Origin: a virus
Strand: one strand, 5' to 3'
IMG/VR virus record: IMGVR_UViG_3300020410_000056
Coordinates: 1-25,158 of that record
Length of the DNA: 25,158 nucleotides
Shown here: in pieces, positions 12,564 through 23,469 of the stretch
Layout: each line of letters begins with the position of its first letter
Numbering within the stretch: position 1 is the stretch's first letter
The notes under the pieces: generated by a model
What the model was told of the DNA's origin: nothing
The model's database searches: none
Seen by the model: the letters and a program-made list of their open reading frames with translations, nothing else
Translations under genes and position numbers: made by a program

Positions 12564-13942
12564 TAGAACCTGCCGCCATTAAGATAGTTTTTTGGGTTAC
12601 GCTTTCTATGATCGTATCCTTTTTCTTTCATATCAAGATGGTCTTGTAATTTGTTAGCCTTATATGCTTTTCCTGTTTTTGGGTCATACATCATATGTGG
12701 TTTAAACGCACCCCCTTTTGCCATTGACATTGCTCCTTTATTCATTGCGTTAGAAACTAAGCCGCTTAACTGGTTCATTGCTATAGCTTGGTTTGCTTGT
12801 TGAGTGTAATAACCACCATGATTATAATCTGGCATTTTCATTCCGTGTTTAGCATAATCTAATTCCTCCTCTACATTAGGAGTTACAAATGGATTTTCTT
12901 TTTCCCCCACCCAGTCTCCTTCTAGCAATCCTGCTGGATCTGAAGATTTTTTAATATTAGAAAGTACATCCGCTTTCCTTACATTTAATCCAGACATTAC
13001 AGGTTCAGCTGCTTTCTGTATAGGATCTCTTTTTACTGTCTGCAAATTATCTTGTGGCATATTGAAATTGTAAGAATCTCTAGAAGGGAATAATACAGGT
13101 CTAACATACTCATTTAACAAATCTATTGCTCCAAACCCTAAAGATTTAGTTGCGTCTAACGCTCCCTCTATAAGTCCTCCAGCTAAATTTAAACCTGCAC
13201 CCATAATAGGCTCAGTTACATTTCTAACCCCTCTTAAAATAGGTGTTGCTACATCCATTGCTAAATCCATTCCAGGCTCTAATACAGGTTTTATAACTTT
13301 ATTTGCCTCTTTCATTGCAGTAGTTGCCACCTTTCCAGTGCCCTCAACTAAACCTCTTGAGCCGCTAGCTATTGTTTTTACCGCTGGAGTGAGAGCTTTG
13401 TCGCCAACAGTTCTAACAACATTTGTACTTGCCTGAGCTAATGGGTCAACCACATTACCAGCTACATCAAACACTGGATTTAATACAGTATTAAGGGGTT
13501 GTGTAACAGCTTTAACGGCACTAGTAACAGGTTTAAAAACGGATCTAAGAAATCCACCAAGTCCATATTCAGGAACATCATACATACCTCCCTTATTAAA
13601 ACTAGTAACATTTTCTCCCATATACGGATTTAGTGCAATAAGCGGATTTGCATCCATATTACCTTCCACTTGTGCAGATCCACCACCTCCACCTGGGCCT
13701 TTCATACCTCTCGCTTGCTCAATAGAGGTTGCTGATATTCTATTTAAATTGCCAAACAAAGAAGCTAAGTTGCCCTGTCTAGACATTCCTCTTAAATTAG
13801 GCGCATCATCTACTGGTATATCACGATTAACTCGGTTTGCAATATTAAAAGATCTATCTATTGCTGCCAAACCTAAAGGTGCATTTGACATAGGAGCTTC
13901 TGCTGGAGGTAAATCTGTTGTAAAGTTCGGGAAGAATGCCAT
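12563..13942 (-). CDS. Putative internal or ejected virion protein with Val/Pro-rich repeats
   Basis: This 459-residue protein is the first gene of the leftward operon. Residues 133-282 hold imperfect repeats of about 20-30 residues with Pro-Val/Ile and small hydrophobics (LNPVFDVAGNVVDPL at 154-168, IKPVLEPGMDLAMDVATPIL at 217-236), amphipathic or membrane-active in look. A Gly-rich linker (KGPGGGGGSA, 81-90) precedes it. The C-terminal 100 residues carry the HGMKMPDYNHGG motif (366-377) also seen in the 123-residue protein, plus AKGGAF and a final NGGRF. This suggests an ejected or internal virion protein, but the evidence is composition and position only. Confidence 0.5.
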   Translation of the reverse strand: MAFFPNFTTDLPPAEAPMSNAPLGLAAIDRSFNIANRVNRDIPVDDAPNLRGMSRQGNLASLFGNLNRISATSIEQARGMKGPGGGGGSAQVEGNMDANPLIALNPYMGENVTSFNKGGMYDVPEYGLGGFLRSVFKPVTSAVKAVTQPLNTVLNPVFDVAGNVVDPLAQASTNVVRTVGDKALTPAVKTIASGSRGLVEGTGKVATTAMKEANKVIKPVLEPGMDLAMDVATPILRGVRNVTEPIMGAGLNLAGGLIEGALDATKSLGFGAIDLLNEYVRPVLFPSRDSYNFNMPQDNLQTVKRDPIQKAAEPVMSGLNVRKADVLSNIKKSSDPAGLLEGDWVGEKENPFVTPNVEEELDYAKHGMKMPDYNHGGYYTQQANQAIAMNQLSGLVSNAMNKGAMSMAKGGAFKPHMMYDPKTGKAYKANKLQDHLDMKEKGYDHRKRNPKNYLNGGRF

Positions 13943-14122
13943 AGTATATTATTTTTTACAAAGATATAAAAAAAATTTTTTATTTTTCTGAGGGAGGGAT
14001 ACTATATGCTTAAACCCCCCGTTGCATTTCAAAACTTTGGATACCCTACCCTATTTTTTAGATTCTCAATTCTTTTACAACTTAATTATAGACAATATAA
14101 TTATTAATTTAAATTACTTATT
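13943..14122. other. Divergent intergenic region between virion and early arms
   Basis: These 180 bases separate the leftward and rightward gene arms. Besides the leftward -7 box, they hold a G-rich/C-rich pair (GGGAGGG near 13992, CCCCCC near 14018), a GGATAC direct repeat near 13998 and 14038, and one copy of the AACTTA element at 14079-14092. No open reading frame of note is present. A rightward promoter is expected here, but I cannot point to a good TAnnTTTG match. Confidence 0.5.
13959..13966 (-). promoter_or_regulatory. Bacteroidota-type -7 box (TATCTTTG), main leftward promoter candidate
   Basis: On the minus strand this reads TATCTTTG, a match to TAnnTTTG, 16 bases upstream of the ATG at 13942 that opens the 14-kb structural operon. 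The same octamer occurs on the plus strand at 14990 and 23092. I see no strong TTG -33 element at the expected spacing, so activation by a phage or host factor is possible. Confidence 0.55.
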
Positions 14123-14278
14123 ATGGACTATATACTATGGTTATTCTTACTATTCATTGGAATGTTTGCTAAATGCTTGGGTGCTTTGTTAGCATTTGGT
14201 GTAGCTTATTACATTTACAAAACCTATGCAGATAAACTAATTGATAAGGCAGATAAAATAATAAAGGGAGACAAATAG
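14123..14278 (+). CDS. Small single-span membrane protein (51 aa)
   Basis: ATG at 14123 and TAG at 14276 give MDYILWLFLLFIGMFAKCLG..., with one long hydrophobic helix (residues about 4-31) followed by a charged Lys/Asp tail (DKLIDKADKIIKGDK). It is the first gene of the rightward arm. The stop codon overlaps the stem-loop of a terminator (14266-14291), so the gene forms its own short transcription unit. A role at the host membrane (for example superinfection exclusion or lysis timing) is possible but only guessed. Confidence 0.6.
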   Translation: MDYILWLFLLFIGMFAKCLGALLAFGVAYYIYKTYADKLIDKADKIIKGDK

Positions 14279-14291
14279 TCTCTCTTTTTTT
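14266..14291 (+). terminator. Intrinsic terminator overlapping a stop codon
   Basis: GGGAGAC (14266-14272), loop AAATA, then GTCTCTC (14278-14284) form seven pairs with one G-U, followed by seven T. The TAG stop of the small membrane protein lies in the loop and first stem base. Confidence 0.8.
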
Positions 14292-14397
14292 CAATTTAGT
14301 ATAAAATATGCGTATTGAAGTGTCAGTGTGATATAATCTATAACCCTTAATAATCACCCTTATAATAGCTATAATAACAGTATAATTACTCTAAGTT

Positions 14398-14410
14398 ATT
14401 GATAATCAAT
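14398..14410. repeat. Perfect palindrome flanked by direct repeats
   Basis: ATTGAT-A-ATCAAT is a perfect inverted repeat. AGTTATTG occurs at 14394-14401 and again at 14412-14419, 18 bases apart, overlapping and flanking the palindrome. This is the layout of a dimer-binding operator or initiator-binding iteron pair. Confidence 0.4.
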
Positions 14411-14520
14411 CAGTTATTGTTTATTTATCATTTATTACTAATGTATAATATATGTTCTAATATATTTAGATGATTAATAATAATAACTAACTAATGAGTT
14501 GGCGAAGTTATACATTTTAT

Positions 14521-14533
14521 TTGACATTGTCAA
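14521..14533. repeat. 13-nt palindrome TTGACATTGTCAA
   Basis: TTGACA-T-TGTCAA is an inverted repeat in non-coding DNA upstream of the first structured RNA candidate. It may be an operator half-site pair. It also contains a TTGACA hexamer, but no suitably spaced TATAAT follows. Confidence 0.35.
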
Positions 14534-14611
14534 GCGTTTAGCAGTTTTTTTATTCAACTATAATTGCTTATAATATTTAGCTGACTAATTTTTTCAACTT
14601 AATAATAGATA

Positions 14612-14693
14612 ACAAGAATAGAGTACAAGAGTGTGCGCGCTCTCCTCGTGGAAAGGTATATACATCATAGGTTTACCCTCTGTTCTTTTTTTT
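14612..14693 (+). ncRNA. Structured RNA candidate A (three-way junction plus U-tract)
   Basis: AGAATAGAG (14615-14623) pairs with CTCTGTTCT (14678-14686, one U-G pair) and is followed by eight U. Inside are a good hairpin AGAGTG-TGCG-CGCTCT (14628-14643) and a weaker GGTA/TACC stem (14655-14658 with 14674-14677). The 5' flank carries the same AACTTAATAATAGA element as candidate C, and the 3' flank has TTAACTTAA. It lies 23 bases before the metal-site gene at 14716. It may be a leader with conditional termination or a stand-alone small RNA; no known family is recognised. Confidence 0.5.
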
Positions 14694-14715
14694 ATTAACT
14701 TAAATCAAAACTATT

Positions 14716-14976
14716 ATGAAAACTATAGGAATCAATTGCTCTTGTGGCAATACAGAAGGCTTTCAGCTTTCAAGTACAGCAGCTGAATGCACAAGCTGTA
14801 CAACATTACATACAATTACAGATGAGCCTGTGTTCATCACTCGTAACATTACACCTTTACACGTAATAGAACAACGTGCTAAAGAGCAAGCAGTAATAGA
14901 TATGTGGCTAGATGATCAGCCATTTATTGACTGGTCTACTTGCTTTGATATAAATAACATAAGAGTGGCAGTTTAG
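14716..14976 (+). CDS. Small putative zinc-binding protein
   Basis: This 86-residue protein carries CSCG at 8-11 and CTSC at 25-28, a CxC...CxxC zinc-ribbon-like half-site set (C8, C10, C25, C28). The C-terminal half is mixed and acidic (MWLDDQPFIDWSTCFD) without further metal motifs. It is preceded by an A-rich leader after the U-tract of RNA candidate A. Such small zinc-ribbon proteins are common in phage early regions and may touch nucleic acids or host enzymes; the function here is unknown. Confidence 0.65.
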   Translation: MKTIGINCSCGNTEGFQLSSTAAECTSCTTLHTITDEPVFITRNITPLHVIEQRAKEQAVIDMWLDDQPFIDWSTCFDINNIRVAV

Positions 14977-14989
14977 TCACTCTTTTTAT

Positions 14990-14997
14990 TATCTTTG
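14990..14997 (+). promoter_or_regulatory. Bacteroidota-type -7 box (TATCTTTG) for small RNA B
   Basis: TATCTTTG matches TAnnTTTG. Expected transcription start is about six bases downstream, exactly where the first stem of RNA candidate B begins (15006). The -33 region has no clear TTG. Confidence 0.55.
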
Positions 14998-15002
14998 CAA
15001 AC

Positions 15003-15095
15003 TTTTATAGAATGTTCCTCAGTGCTAATCTATATTGTCGTTAATTCTCTATTTAGCATTCTATACATAACGGGGCTTAGCACAGCCCCTTTTTT
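15003..15095 (+). ncRNA. Small RNA candidate B (own promoter, long stem, terminator)
   Basis: A transcript of about 92 nt is predicted from the box at 14990 to the U-tract at 15095. TATAGAATG (15006-15014) pairs perfectly with CATTCTATA (15057-15065). A second hairpin, GGGGCT-TAGCAC-AGCCCC (15072-15089) plus six U, is a strong intrinsic terminator. All six terminator loop bases, TAGCAC (15078-15083), are complementary to GTGCTA at 15022-15027 inside the first stem-loop, so a loop-loop contact is possible. The same upstream bases can alternatively pair with local TTAG (15053-15056). No coding frame is apparent. Unknown family. Confidence 0.6.
15072..15095 (+). terminator. Intrinsic terminator of small RNA B
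   Basis: GGGGCT (15072-15077), loop TAGCAC, AGCCCC (15084-15089), then six T. It is a perfect six-pair, GC-rich stem. Confidence 0.85.
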
Positions 15096-15096
15096 C

Positions 15097-15293
15097 AACT
15101 TAATAATAGAATAGCGAACGTAGTATTGCAAGCTATCCTCTTTTCAGTAGTGGTGAAAGATCCAAACTCTAGATATTGCCCGTAAAGCATATTGATAATG
15201 AGGCTTTAAACCATAGGGCTGATTAACTCGCATGAAATTGCCTATGAAATAACGCGGAGTACTCAATAGAGAGAGGTATACTATTCTTTTTTT
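15097..15293 (+). ncRNA. Structured RNA candidate C (about 190 nt) with competing 3' pairings
   Basis: It begins with AACTTAATAATAGA as in candidate A. AGAATAG (15108-15114) can pair with CTATTCT (15281-15287), which runs into seven U. Alternatively AATAG at 15265-15269 pairs locally with CTATT at 15281-15285, so the 3' end has two mutually exclusive partners. Internal hairpins are ATAGC/GCTAT (15111-15115 with 15132-15136, competing with the outer stem), a CTTTTCA/TGAAAG hairpin near 15139-15159, GCCC-GTAAAGC paired with GCTTTA...GGGC (about 15178-15219), and a bulged ACTCGC/GCGGAGT stem near 15226-15260. It lies 45 bases before the gene at 15338. It looks like a leader switch or a stand-alone RNA; no known riboswitch is recognised. 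Confidence 0.5.
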
Positions 15294-15337
15294 AACTTAA
15301 AAATAACTAATCTAATATTAATCAAAACAATTAAATC

Positions 15338-15706
15338 ATGTCAGAAAACAAAAACACATTAGCAAAAGGTATGTTCGTTAGAGAGCATACATTTGATTCA
15401 GGAACTAAAATTCTTAATGTATCTATCAATGTAGCAGATTTTTGCTCATTCGTTAAAGATAATATGAATACAGATTCTAATGGTAATCAATGGGTTAACC
15501 TAAAATTAATCCCTAACAAAAATGTAGGAGACAATAAACTATCTCATACGCCTATTCTTAATGATTACACTCCTAAAAATGCAGACAGAGCTTTAGATGC
15601 ATTAGCAGAAGTGCTTAAGCCTAGCGTTGAGGAGAGAGAAATAATAGAAACTCCTACAAAGAAAACTAGAAAGAAAGCAACTAAAAAGGCTGATCTGCCA
15701 TTCTAA
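15338..15706 (+). CDS. Putative nucleic-acid-binding protein with SSB-like C-terminal tail
   Basis: This 122-residue protein has a beta-rich N-terminal part (residues 10-70: GMFVREHTFDSGTKILNVSI, then NQWVNLKLIPN) that resembles small early phage proteins of unknown function. A linker rich in Thr and Lys (TPTKKTRKKATKK) leads to a terminal ADLPF. Bacterial SSB proteins end in an acidic peptide closing with Pro-Phe that recruits partner enzymes; here the tail is similar but preceded by basic residues. It is preceded by RNA candidate C and followed, with a TAATG overlap, by a membrane protein gene. An SSB-like role is an inference. Confidence 0.5.
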   Translation: MSENKNTLAKGMFVREHTFDSGTKILNVSINVADFCSFVKDNMNTDSNGNQWVNLKLIPNKNVGDNKLSHTPILNDYTPKNADRALDALAEVLKPSVEEREIIETPTKKTRKKATKKADLPF

Positions 15707-15998: not shown

Positions 15999-16382
15999 AT
16001 GAAAAAAGAAATCTATGAAATCTCATCACAATATATGAAAGATTTAAAAAAATTATTGAAAAACAAAAAAATATCACAGTATGATATAGCCCATCAGTCA
16101 TTTAGAAAAAACAATGCTGATTGGATTATTAAACATGTGAATAAAGCAAAGCTTACAATTACATATCTTAATGGAGACGTAAGAGTACTCCCTACATATA
16201 ATGAGCTTATGCGTAGAGTTAGCTGGAGTAATAACGATTACAAATCAGCTAGACGTAGATTTATTAAAAGATATTATAGAATAGTTAATGCTTTTACTAA
16301 ACATAAAAATAGATTTAAAAGAAATACGATAGCCAACAAACTTAATCCACAACAGATTAAACAGTTAGCTTCGCAAATATAA
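15999..16382 (+). CDS. Basic helical protein, unknown function
   Basis: This 127-residue protein is very rich in Lys, Arg and Asn. Residues 10-45 contain a helix-turn-helix-looking segment (LLKNKKISQYDIAHQSF). Residues 48-68 look beta-rich (AKLTITYLNGDVRVLPTY). The end is strongly basic (YKSARRRFIKRYYRIVNAF, HKNRFKRNTI). The charge and shape suggest DNA or RNA binding, possibly a regulator. It forms its own unit between a terminator and the structured RNA that begins at its stop codon. No family is recognised. Confidence 0.6.
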   Translation: MKKEIYEISSQYMKDLKKLLKNKKISQYDIAHQSFRKNNADWIIKHVNKAKLTITYLNGDVRVLPTYNELMRRVSWSNNDYKSARRRFIKRYYRIVNAFTKHKNRFKRNTIANKLNPQQIKQLASQI

Positions 16383-16619
16383 TGATAAGGTTATTAATGT
16401 AATATACCCTGGACCCTTATCATAGAGTCAGGTCGGGCAACTATTTGTAGAATTAATAAAATTCATAATTAAAGTGTTCTAATTGCAGATAAACTTTAAA
16501 CATAGCAAGTTGGCGTAAAACGTTCCTGACTCTAAACATAAGAAAGGAGGTTAGTAATTTAATTTTAATAACTCAGCGGTTATACTTTGTGTGTTGATTA
16601 CAACTCCTCCTTTCTTTTT
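16382..16619 (+). ncRNA. Structured RNA candidate D (three consecutive long stems, U-tract)
   Basis: Stem I: ATGATAAGG (16382-16390) with CCTTATCAT (16415-16423). Stem II begins at the next base: AGAGTCAGG (16424-16432) with CCTGACTCT (16525-16533). It encloses CAACT/AGTTG (16438-16442 with 16508-16512), GAATT/AATTC (16450-16464) and TTAAAGT/ACTTTAA (16469-16475 with 16493-16499). Stem III: AAGAAAGGAGG (16540-16550) with CCTCCTTTCTT (16606-16616) and a U-run to 16619. Stems I-III are perfect pairings of 9, 9 and 11 bases in non-coding DNA. Stem III plus the U-run can act as terminator. I do not recognise it as a tmRNA, RNase P, intron or known riboswitch. Confidence 0.6.
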
Positions 16620-16639
16620 ATTAATTAAAAACTAAAACA

Positions 16640-16888
16640 ATGAAAGCAAAAAAAATAGGAAAAAACCTTACAAAATCATATAGTGAATGGAAAGAATATG
16701 TTAGCGATAGTTTAAAACAATCTAAACTTAAAAAAGAAGTTCCTAAAACTATAAATAAATTAAAAGATACTCTAAGTAAATTTGATGACAAATTCTTAGG
16801 TAAATACAATTATTTTCTTGATGTAAAATATTTAAGAAAAAAAACAGAAGAAATATATAATCGTAGTAAAAGTCTTATAAATAAATAA
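16640..16888 (+). CDS. Small lysine-rich helical protein
   Basis: This 82-residue protein is almost entirely helical and very Lys-rich (SYSEWKEYVSDSLKQSKLKK, then TINKLKDTLSKFDDKFLGKY). It opens the main early operon, 20 bases after the U-tract of RNA candidate D, with an A-rich leader. The next gene starts two bases after its stop. Function unknown. Confidence 0.6.
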   Translation: MKAKKIGKNLTKSYSEWKEYVSDSLKQSKLKKEVPKTINKLKDTLSKFDDKFLGKYNYFLDVKYLRKKTEEIYNRSKSLINK

Positions 16889-22971: not shown

Positions 22972-22983
22972 AGATATATAAAT

Positions 22984-23080
22984 GAGAGAGATAACAGATC
23001 CCTAGGATCAGGTAAGTGTCCTACTAGATAGGTTAAACTTTTAAGATTTAAGTGCGCCAAATTCCAAGGGTGAAACTCTC
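22984..23080 (+). ncRNA. Cloverleaf-like structured stretch before the resolvase gene
   Basis: GAGAG (22984-22988) can pair with CTCTC (23076-23080). Between them are GATCC-CTA-GGATC (22997-23009), CCTA-CTAGA-TAGG (23020-23032), TTAAA/TTTAA (23033-23037 with 23047-23051) and CGCC/GGTG (23055-23058 with 23069-23072, one G-U). Stems are short. It fails as a tRNA: there is no proper anticodon loop or TTCRA loop. It may be a 3' UTR or regulatory element; weak evidence. Confidence 0.3.
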
Positions 23081-23091
23081 AAATTTATTAT

Positions 23092-23103: not shown

Positions 23104-23469
23104 ATGGCAGAGATTTTCATAGCAGGAAATGTCCCATCTAGTAAAAACGGAAAACGATGGACAGGAAAGTATTTAATTCATTCTAAAACAGTTATGAATT
23201 ATATAAAAAAAACAAAACAAGACTGGATTAACAACAAAGAAAAGTTTATAGAACAAATAAAAGACAAGAAAATGCCATACAAAATAGAATTTACATTTAT
23301 AAGAAATAGCAGAAGAAAGTTTGATTATATAAATCCTTGTCAGACTGTTCAAGACTTAATGGTTACATACAATTATATAGATGATGATAATTGTGATTGC
23401 GTAATACCTAGCTTTGGGGAATACAAATACGATAAAGAAAATTCAGGAGTAAAAATTAAAATACTATGA
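23104..23469 (+). CDS. rusA: RusA-type Holliday junction resolvase
   Basis: This 121-residue endonuclease cuts four-way DNA junctions as a dimer. Near the N-terminus is the family pattern GNVPSSKNGKRWT (8-20). The metal-binding core is spread over RRKFDYINPCQTVQDLM (70-86; D74, N77, D84) and YIDDDNCDCVIP (91-102; D93-D95), matching the acidic positions of RusA. Length is normal (RusA is about 120 residues). It follows a likely leaderless promoter and overlaps the next gene by four bases. It fits the annealase-nuclease recombination set. Confidence 0.85.
   Translation: MAEIFIAGNVPSSKNGKRWTGKYLIHSKTVMNYIKKTKQDWINNKEKFIEQIKDKKMPYKIEFTFIRNSRRKFDYINPCQTVQDLMVTYNYIDDDNCDCVIPSFGEYKYDKENSGVKIKIL

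Follow-up and report, generated by a model that had tools for sequence, protein, structure and literature searches.

By comparing a virus fragment with its marine relatives, we found that two short elements between its early genes, A and C, are probably exchangeable small RNAs belonging to a hypervariable set of early cassettes in a marine lineage related to the crAss-like phages; they may act in trans and be aimed at the host. The fragment of 25.2 kb (25,158 nt; IMG/VR IMGVR_UViG_3300020410_000056), called the window here, was compared with about 25 related marine contigs, and this comparison revealed the cassette organisation, closing stems on the sense strand, compensatory changes in several families and relocation of the RNAs.

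The terminase of the window matches phrog_6681 and has about 29% identity to crAss-like phage terminases. Early and replication genes run rightward and structural genes leftward from about position 13,942. Element A is placed between the genes at 14123 and 14716, and element C between the genes at 14716 and 15338, right after the terminator of another RNA-like element, named B. No early-region relative was found among the INPHARED phages, which were searched by DNA and with the best conserved neighbour protein (there was only a 23-nt chance match), and a broader search, made with the gene at 14716, yielded one small contig beyond the relatives already collected. The features of the window are the following:

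14589 to 14609, + strand: generic junction before A, a T-tract with CAACTTAATAATAGA, outside the RNA's own signature
14614 to 14687, + strand: element A, candidate small RNA
14987 to 15001, + strand: TATTATCTTTGCAAA, host-type -7 box (TAnnTTTG) upstream of RNA B
15006 to 15089, + strand: RNA B
15090 to 15110, + strand: generic junction before C, exact repeat of 14589-14609, overlapping the first bases of C
15108 to 15287, + strand: element C, candidate small RNA (neither closing stem nor fold significant by itself)
16422 to 16533, + strand: RNA with closing stem GAGTCAGG / CCTGACTC
16540 to 16616, + strand: RNA with closing stem AAGAAAGGAGG / CCTCCTTTCTT running into a T-tract
22977 to 23087, + strand: frame RNA, with a conserved frame and swapped cores, AGATAACARATCCCTA ... 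AARGGGYGMAACTCT

Some further places drew attention. Upstream of slot A, a block of about 300 nt (14280-14590) with TTGACATTGTCAAG and repeated TATTTAGCTGATTAA is present in nearly all relatives, and it is possibly an early promoter or a replication origin. The TAG stop of the gene at 14716 lies inside the loop of the gene's own terminator hairpin (14961-14984, AAGAGTGGCAGTTTAGTCACTCTT), and one relative, L093, has the same layout with a different sequence. On the minus strand, a hairpin at 503-546 (GCAAGAATAGGTT...AAGGCCTATTTTTGT) between two late genes is conserved in many relatives.

The preliminary description of A and C was partly confirmed, and its coordinates were correct to within a few bases. 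The closing stem of A pairs 14614-14623 (AAGAATAGAG, with the AGAATAG box) with 14678-14687 (CTCTGTTCTT) and is followed by a T-tract at 14688-14693; that of C pairs AGAATAG (15108-15114) with CTATTCT (15281-15287), and the T-tract extends to 15293. The AGAATAG box is thus present in both elements, as had been described, and so is the order of partner strand, T-tract, AACTTAA and gene; the ATG follows the T-tract by a few tens of bases. The stem and U-tract at the 3' end, by which intrinsically terminated small RNAs are recognised, were found in A and C as predicted terminators. An inner hairpin was found in A (14628-14633 with 14638-14643) and in C (15120-15124 with 15132-15136).

The evidence from these single sequences is weak, and the finding would not stand on A and C alone. 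The closing stem of A is marginal (39/1000 dinucleotide shuffles of the whole intergenic region, 5/1000 counted from the flank), and its hairpin was matched by 1.6% of shuffles. The closing stem of C alone is not above chance, since 409/1000 dinucleotide shuffles were as good. The fold of C was no better than that of shuffles (z=+1.27, 186/200 folded at least as well), and A gave z=-1.96 with its flanks and z=+0.15 when trimmed. Neither element contains a credible ORF: the GTG frames across A, of 51 and 21 aa, are unsupported, as are the ORFs on the strand opposite to C, which reach 40 aa. All three stop codons terminate genes in the window and the late genes are intact under table 11, so recoding is not behind the missing ORFs and a genetic-code artefact was rejected.

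What joins the two elements is an RNA of relative L093 (IMGVR_UViG_3300006919_000089). This 119-nt element lies in the slot of C, its 5' part is as in A (GAGTGTGCRCGCTCTCCTC) and its 3' part is as in C (AGAGAGRGGTATACTATTCT). Global alignment with it gave z=5.7 for A and z=11.8 for C, each with 0/500 shuffles, and the direct alignment of A with C gave z=2.0 only. A and C thus appear to be diverged members of one type, and the statement that their inner parts differ completely was too strong, since both are partly homologous to one L093 RNA. The hairpin directly inside the AGAATAG box recurs in A, L093, C, L097 and L096, with double changes in 4/6 pairs, although this comes from five short sequences only and some controls were only moderate; it was equalled by 0.2-2.7% of shuffles in A, L093, L097 and L096 and by 49% in C. 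L097 and L096 have the A/C architecture and little sequence in common with the others (the L097 alignment is weak, z 3.7 to A and 2.0 to C), so their membership of the A/C type is uncertain. Compensatory changes in the AGAATAG/CTATTCT pairing had been proposed as the check on the structure, but this outer box is nearly invariant in the relatives having it and shows no covariation, so it cannot decide the matter. RNAalifold of L093 with C gave a poor structure, again with no covariation, and was set aside. Exact-pattern scans of viral contigs for the A/C signatures found the L093 lineage only, and the rest were chance matches in unrelated phages.

The shared 5' flank has another meaning. The exact 21-nt repeat TTTTTTCAACTTAATAATAGA is present at 14589-14609 and again at 15090-15110, as had been noticed, but A and C are not the only units to have it. 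Among the roughly 25 related marine contigs it forms the junction that leads from a terminator T-tract to the next early unit, and an ORF of at least 40 aa followed 38 of the 47 distinct junction copies in the relatives, in most cases after 28-31 nt; of the remaining nine, eight stand before an RNA-like cassette and the contig end cuts one. Such a generic flank is uninformative on the kinship of A and C, and because the junction stands before both RNAs and ORFs, RNAs and protein genes hold equivalent positions.

The pattern across the relatives was much clearer than that in the two elements. Non-coding early DNA from 23 loci was examined for long-range stems that close onto a T-tract (p<=0.05), and they were present at 37/111 T-tracts in the sense direction and 2/63 in the antisense direction. 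Clustering of the cassettes gave many unrelated families, and several have compensatory changes, three of them within the window (RNA B, 16540-16616 and 22977-23087). The GUGUGGCC RNA has changes on both sides in 7/20 pairs (0/500 shuffles, a kind of count that here and below ignores sequence relatedness; slid-register controls drop sharply). Covariance models of two families recovered members at E-values of 1e-15 or better with one copy per contig, many of the matches being the building sequences and the weaker reverse-strand matches mirroring the same sites. The longest cassette, of 377 nt (L096, 744-1120), is closed by AAGAATAGC/GCTATTCTT and has no ORF, and it had no Rfam match at the curated threshold. 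A cassette of L064 (18479-18580, minus strand coordinates) carries GTTCGATTC near its 3' end. By eye, the L064/L065 cassette looked tRNA-like, with a T-loop and an acceptor-like closing stem; ARAGORN was negative on L065 and this candidate was rejected.

Within the window, RNA B was compared in 10 relatives and gave 9 double-change cells when 3.8 were expected (0/500). Its stem pairs 15006-15014 with 15057-15065, and its terminator hairpin pairs 15072-15076 with 15085-15089. A loop-loop pairing of 15022-15027 (GUGCUA) with 15078-15083 (UAGCAC, inside the loop of the terminator) is a possible pseudoknot, with one double change only. In L114 the pair is GUGCCA/UGGCAC. The RNA at 16540-16616 has a closing stem matched by 2/1000 shuffles and double changes in 8/20 pairs (20 cells vs 6.8 expected, 0/500), and its covariance model recovered 12 loci. 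Conservation marks the RNA at 16422-16533, which has 2 pairs with double changes and 95-96% identity in L102, L114 and L115, whereas the adjacent gene at 15999 has 70-72% identity in L102 and L114. The frame RNA keeps AGAUAACARAUCCCUA on its 5' side and AARGGGYGMAACUCU on its 3' side in 12 distinct sequences, with a CCC-to-GGG span of 30-66 nt that includes several unrelated cores, and double changes were seen in 6/10 closing pairs (9 cells vs 4.7, 2/500). So the design of conserved ends and swapped cores, first proposed for A and C, is found in this RNA and is only partly true of A and C, because the L093 RNA links them. The frame RNA, which is closely followed by a host-type promoter box and then by the gene at 23104, is perhaps the best entry point to the whole RNA class.

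The host-type -7 box TAnnTTTG is the sigma-A consensus of flavobacteria (PMC9723704). In the window this flavobacterial box stands only before RNA B, where 0 were expected from 100 shuffles, and before the gene at 23104; the box before B is also present in L089, L091 and L096. The search gave no host-type promoter for either A or C. A virion RNA polymerase is typical of crAss-like phages (PMC10136315), and one may be behind the transcription of A and C. Relative G002 has a 2746-aa frame (L208, 11762-19999) with GADLDGDSVHM, which resembles the RNA polymerase catalytic motif. The frame had no match in PHROGs, and its ADLDGD motif alone makes it compatible with a candidate virion RNA polymerase.

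The contents of the slots point to autonomous units. Depending on the relative, the A and C slots are empty or contain an RNA, an ORF or the two together, and the slot after the gene at 15999 holds up to four or five tandem RNAs (L100). The A/C type was found at three places: A lies before 14716, C and the L093 RNA lie before 15338, and the only weakly similar RNA of L097 lies after 15999. The GUGUGGCC RNA is positioned after two different genes. An identical 85-nt RNA is present in L089 and L108, in which the first 400 nt downstream are about 70% alike (275/382 aligned positions), and L041 and L062 share a 72-nt core (71/72 identical) within closing stems of differing sequence. This turnover, together with tandem RNAs, placement after two genes and RNA conservation, fits autonomous units better than gene-bound leaders. 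Cis-acting leaders, in which A and C would be attenuators or riboswitch-like elements with a terminator-like end that controls 14716 and 15338, are the best surviving alternative and an unlikely one. Both elements do sit between a junction and a gene start, with the T-tract close to the ATG, and the L093 RNA precedes the same gene as C. But the same genes have no such RNA, another RNA or an ORF in the slot in relatives, so the stable link to one downstream gene expected of a riboswitch or leader was not found, and sister RNAs change genes and occur in tandem a long way from any start. The preliminary interpretation, which allowed for modular leader RNAs or a small RNA cassette family, was partly supported: RNA types that stand before different genes, in several slots, in tandem and with their own terminator-like T-tract disfavour the leaders, and the cassette family is supported and far broader than A and C, with many families and compensatory changes in several.

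It is a little less likely still that the elements are elaborate terminators or spacers, whose closing stems do no more than end transcripts or stabilise their 3' ends and whose cores are largely neutral. A stem with a T-tract does end every unit, the core of C has no fold signal and the cores are freely replaced, all of which would fit. However, cores are conserved above the neighbouring coding sequence and have paired changes of their own, as in the core hairpin of the GUGUGGCC RNA, and ordinary short terminators are likewise present, which means that long ones are not needed. Improbable too, and the least likely of these, is that C alone is decayed or fortuitous, of L093-like ancestry and no longer a structured RNA: its large insertions relative to L093, weak hairpin and missing fold signal fit this, but the ends, closing stem and T-tract are retained, and reading the alignment of L093 with C gave one compensatory G-C to U-A change in the inner hairpin.

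For the exchangeable small RNAs that we favour, each cassette would have a terminator/leader junction on one side and the next gene on the other. The long-range stem that closes it would run into a U-tract, so that this one helix probably terminates transcription and also shields the two ends of the RNA; the core within the stem would be the working part. Cassettes with an RNA or a small ORF would be gained, lost and swapped among the slots, and recombination at copies of the junction is the probable mechanism. From the sequences we infer discrete transcription, terminator action, function in trans and the target: each unit would be transcribed early and stop at its T-tract, leaving a short RNA whose two ends are paired in a helix. 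As discrete early RNAs, A and C would work in trans against the host, for instance by serving as decoys for host or defence factors or by inhibiting them. That the cassette RNAs help the phage to deal with its host or the host's defences is a guess, drawn only from early location and rapid turnover.

Searches of databases gave no known family. Rfam 15 at the curated threshold had no match in the window or in 13 relatives; permissive scans found nothing in the cassette regions of two relatives and in 16380-16640 of the window, and only weak matches, far below the curated scores, in 13943-15340. ARAGORN found no tRNA or tmRNA in the window or in 43 related loci. The GUGUGGCC core was not found in bacterial genomes, and where the RNAs match other parts of the window in antisense, the matches span 10-13 nt at most. 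In the literature searched, whose coverage was partial, there was no description of such RNA arrays.

The nearest known idea is that of the promoter-early stem-loop (PeSL) cassettes, which Arbiol and colleagues reportedly described in T4-type phages in 2010. In PeSL, repeated stem-loop junctions separate variable early units and are believed to favour the shuffling of cassettes. The present lineage also has variable early units at repeated junctions, with 47 distinct T-tract junctions of this kind; however, the cargo in T4-type phages is small protein genes and here it is often structured RNA, and no consensus for an early promoter was recognised in the junction. Phages also encode small RNAs and RNA mimics, such as RNA anti-CRISPRs and phage copies of type III antitoxin RNAs, and the cassettes resemble them as short phage-encoded non-coding RNAs possibly directed at host systems. 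They differ in having no tandem pseudoknot repeats or CRISPR-repeat likeness (by eye only) and no Rfam match, and in that many unrelated families, not one, stand side by side. The put RNAs of phage HK022 act in cis and let polymerase pass terminators; they too are short structured RNAs in an early phage region rich in terminators, but the elements here end in terminator-like T-tracts and vary between relatives.

The search for phage functions in counter-defence and host takeover usually turns to small proteins. We tentatively suggest, with less confidence than for A and C themselves, that this lineage has an exchangeable arsenal of structured non-coding RNAs from many unrelated families, with up to four or five in tandem in one slot, in the place and role usual for takeover and counter-defence proteins. 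If accessory RNAs are truly regular early cargo, protein-only annotation misses them. The lineage also supplies many new families of structured RNA in which covariation can be measured, and one frame whose cores have been swapped naturally gives a way to ask what RNAs of this sort bind.
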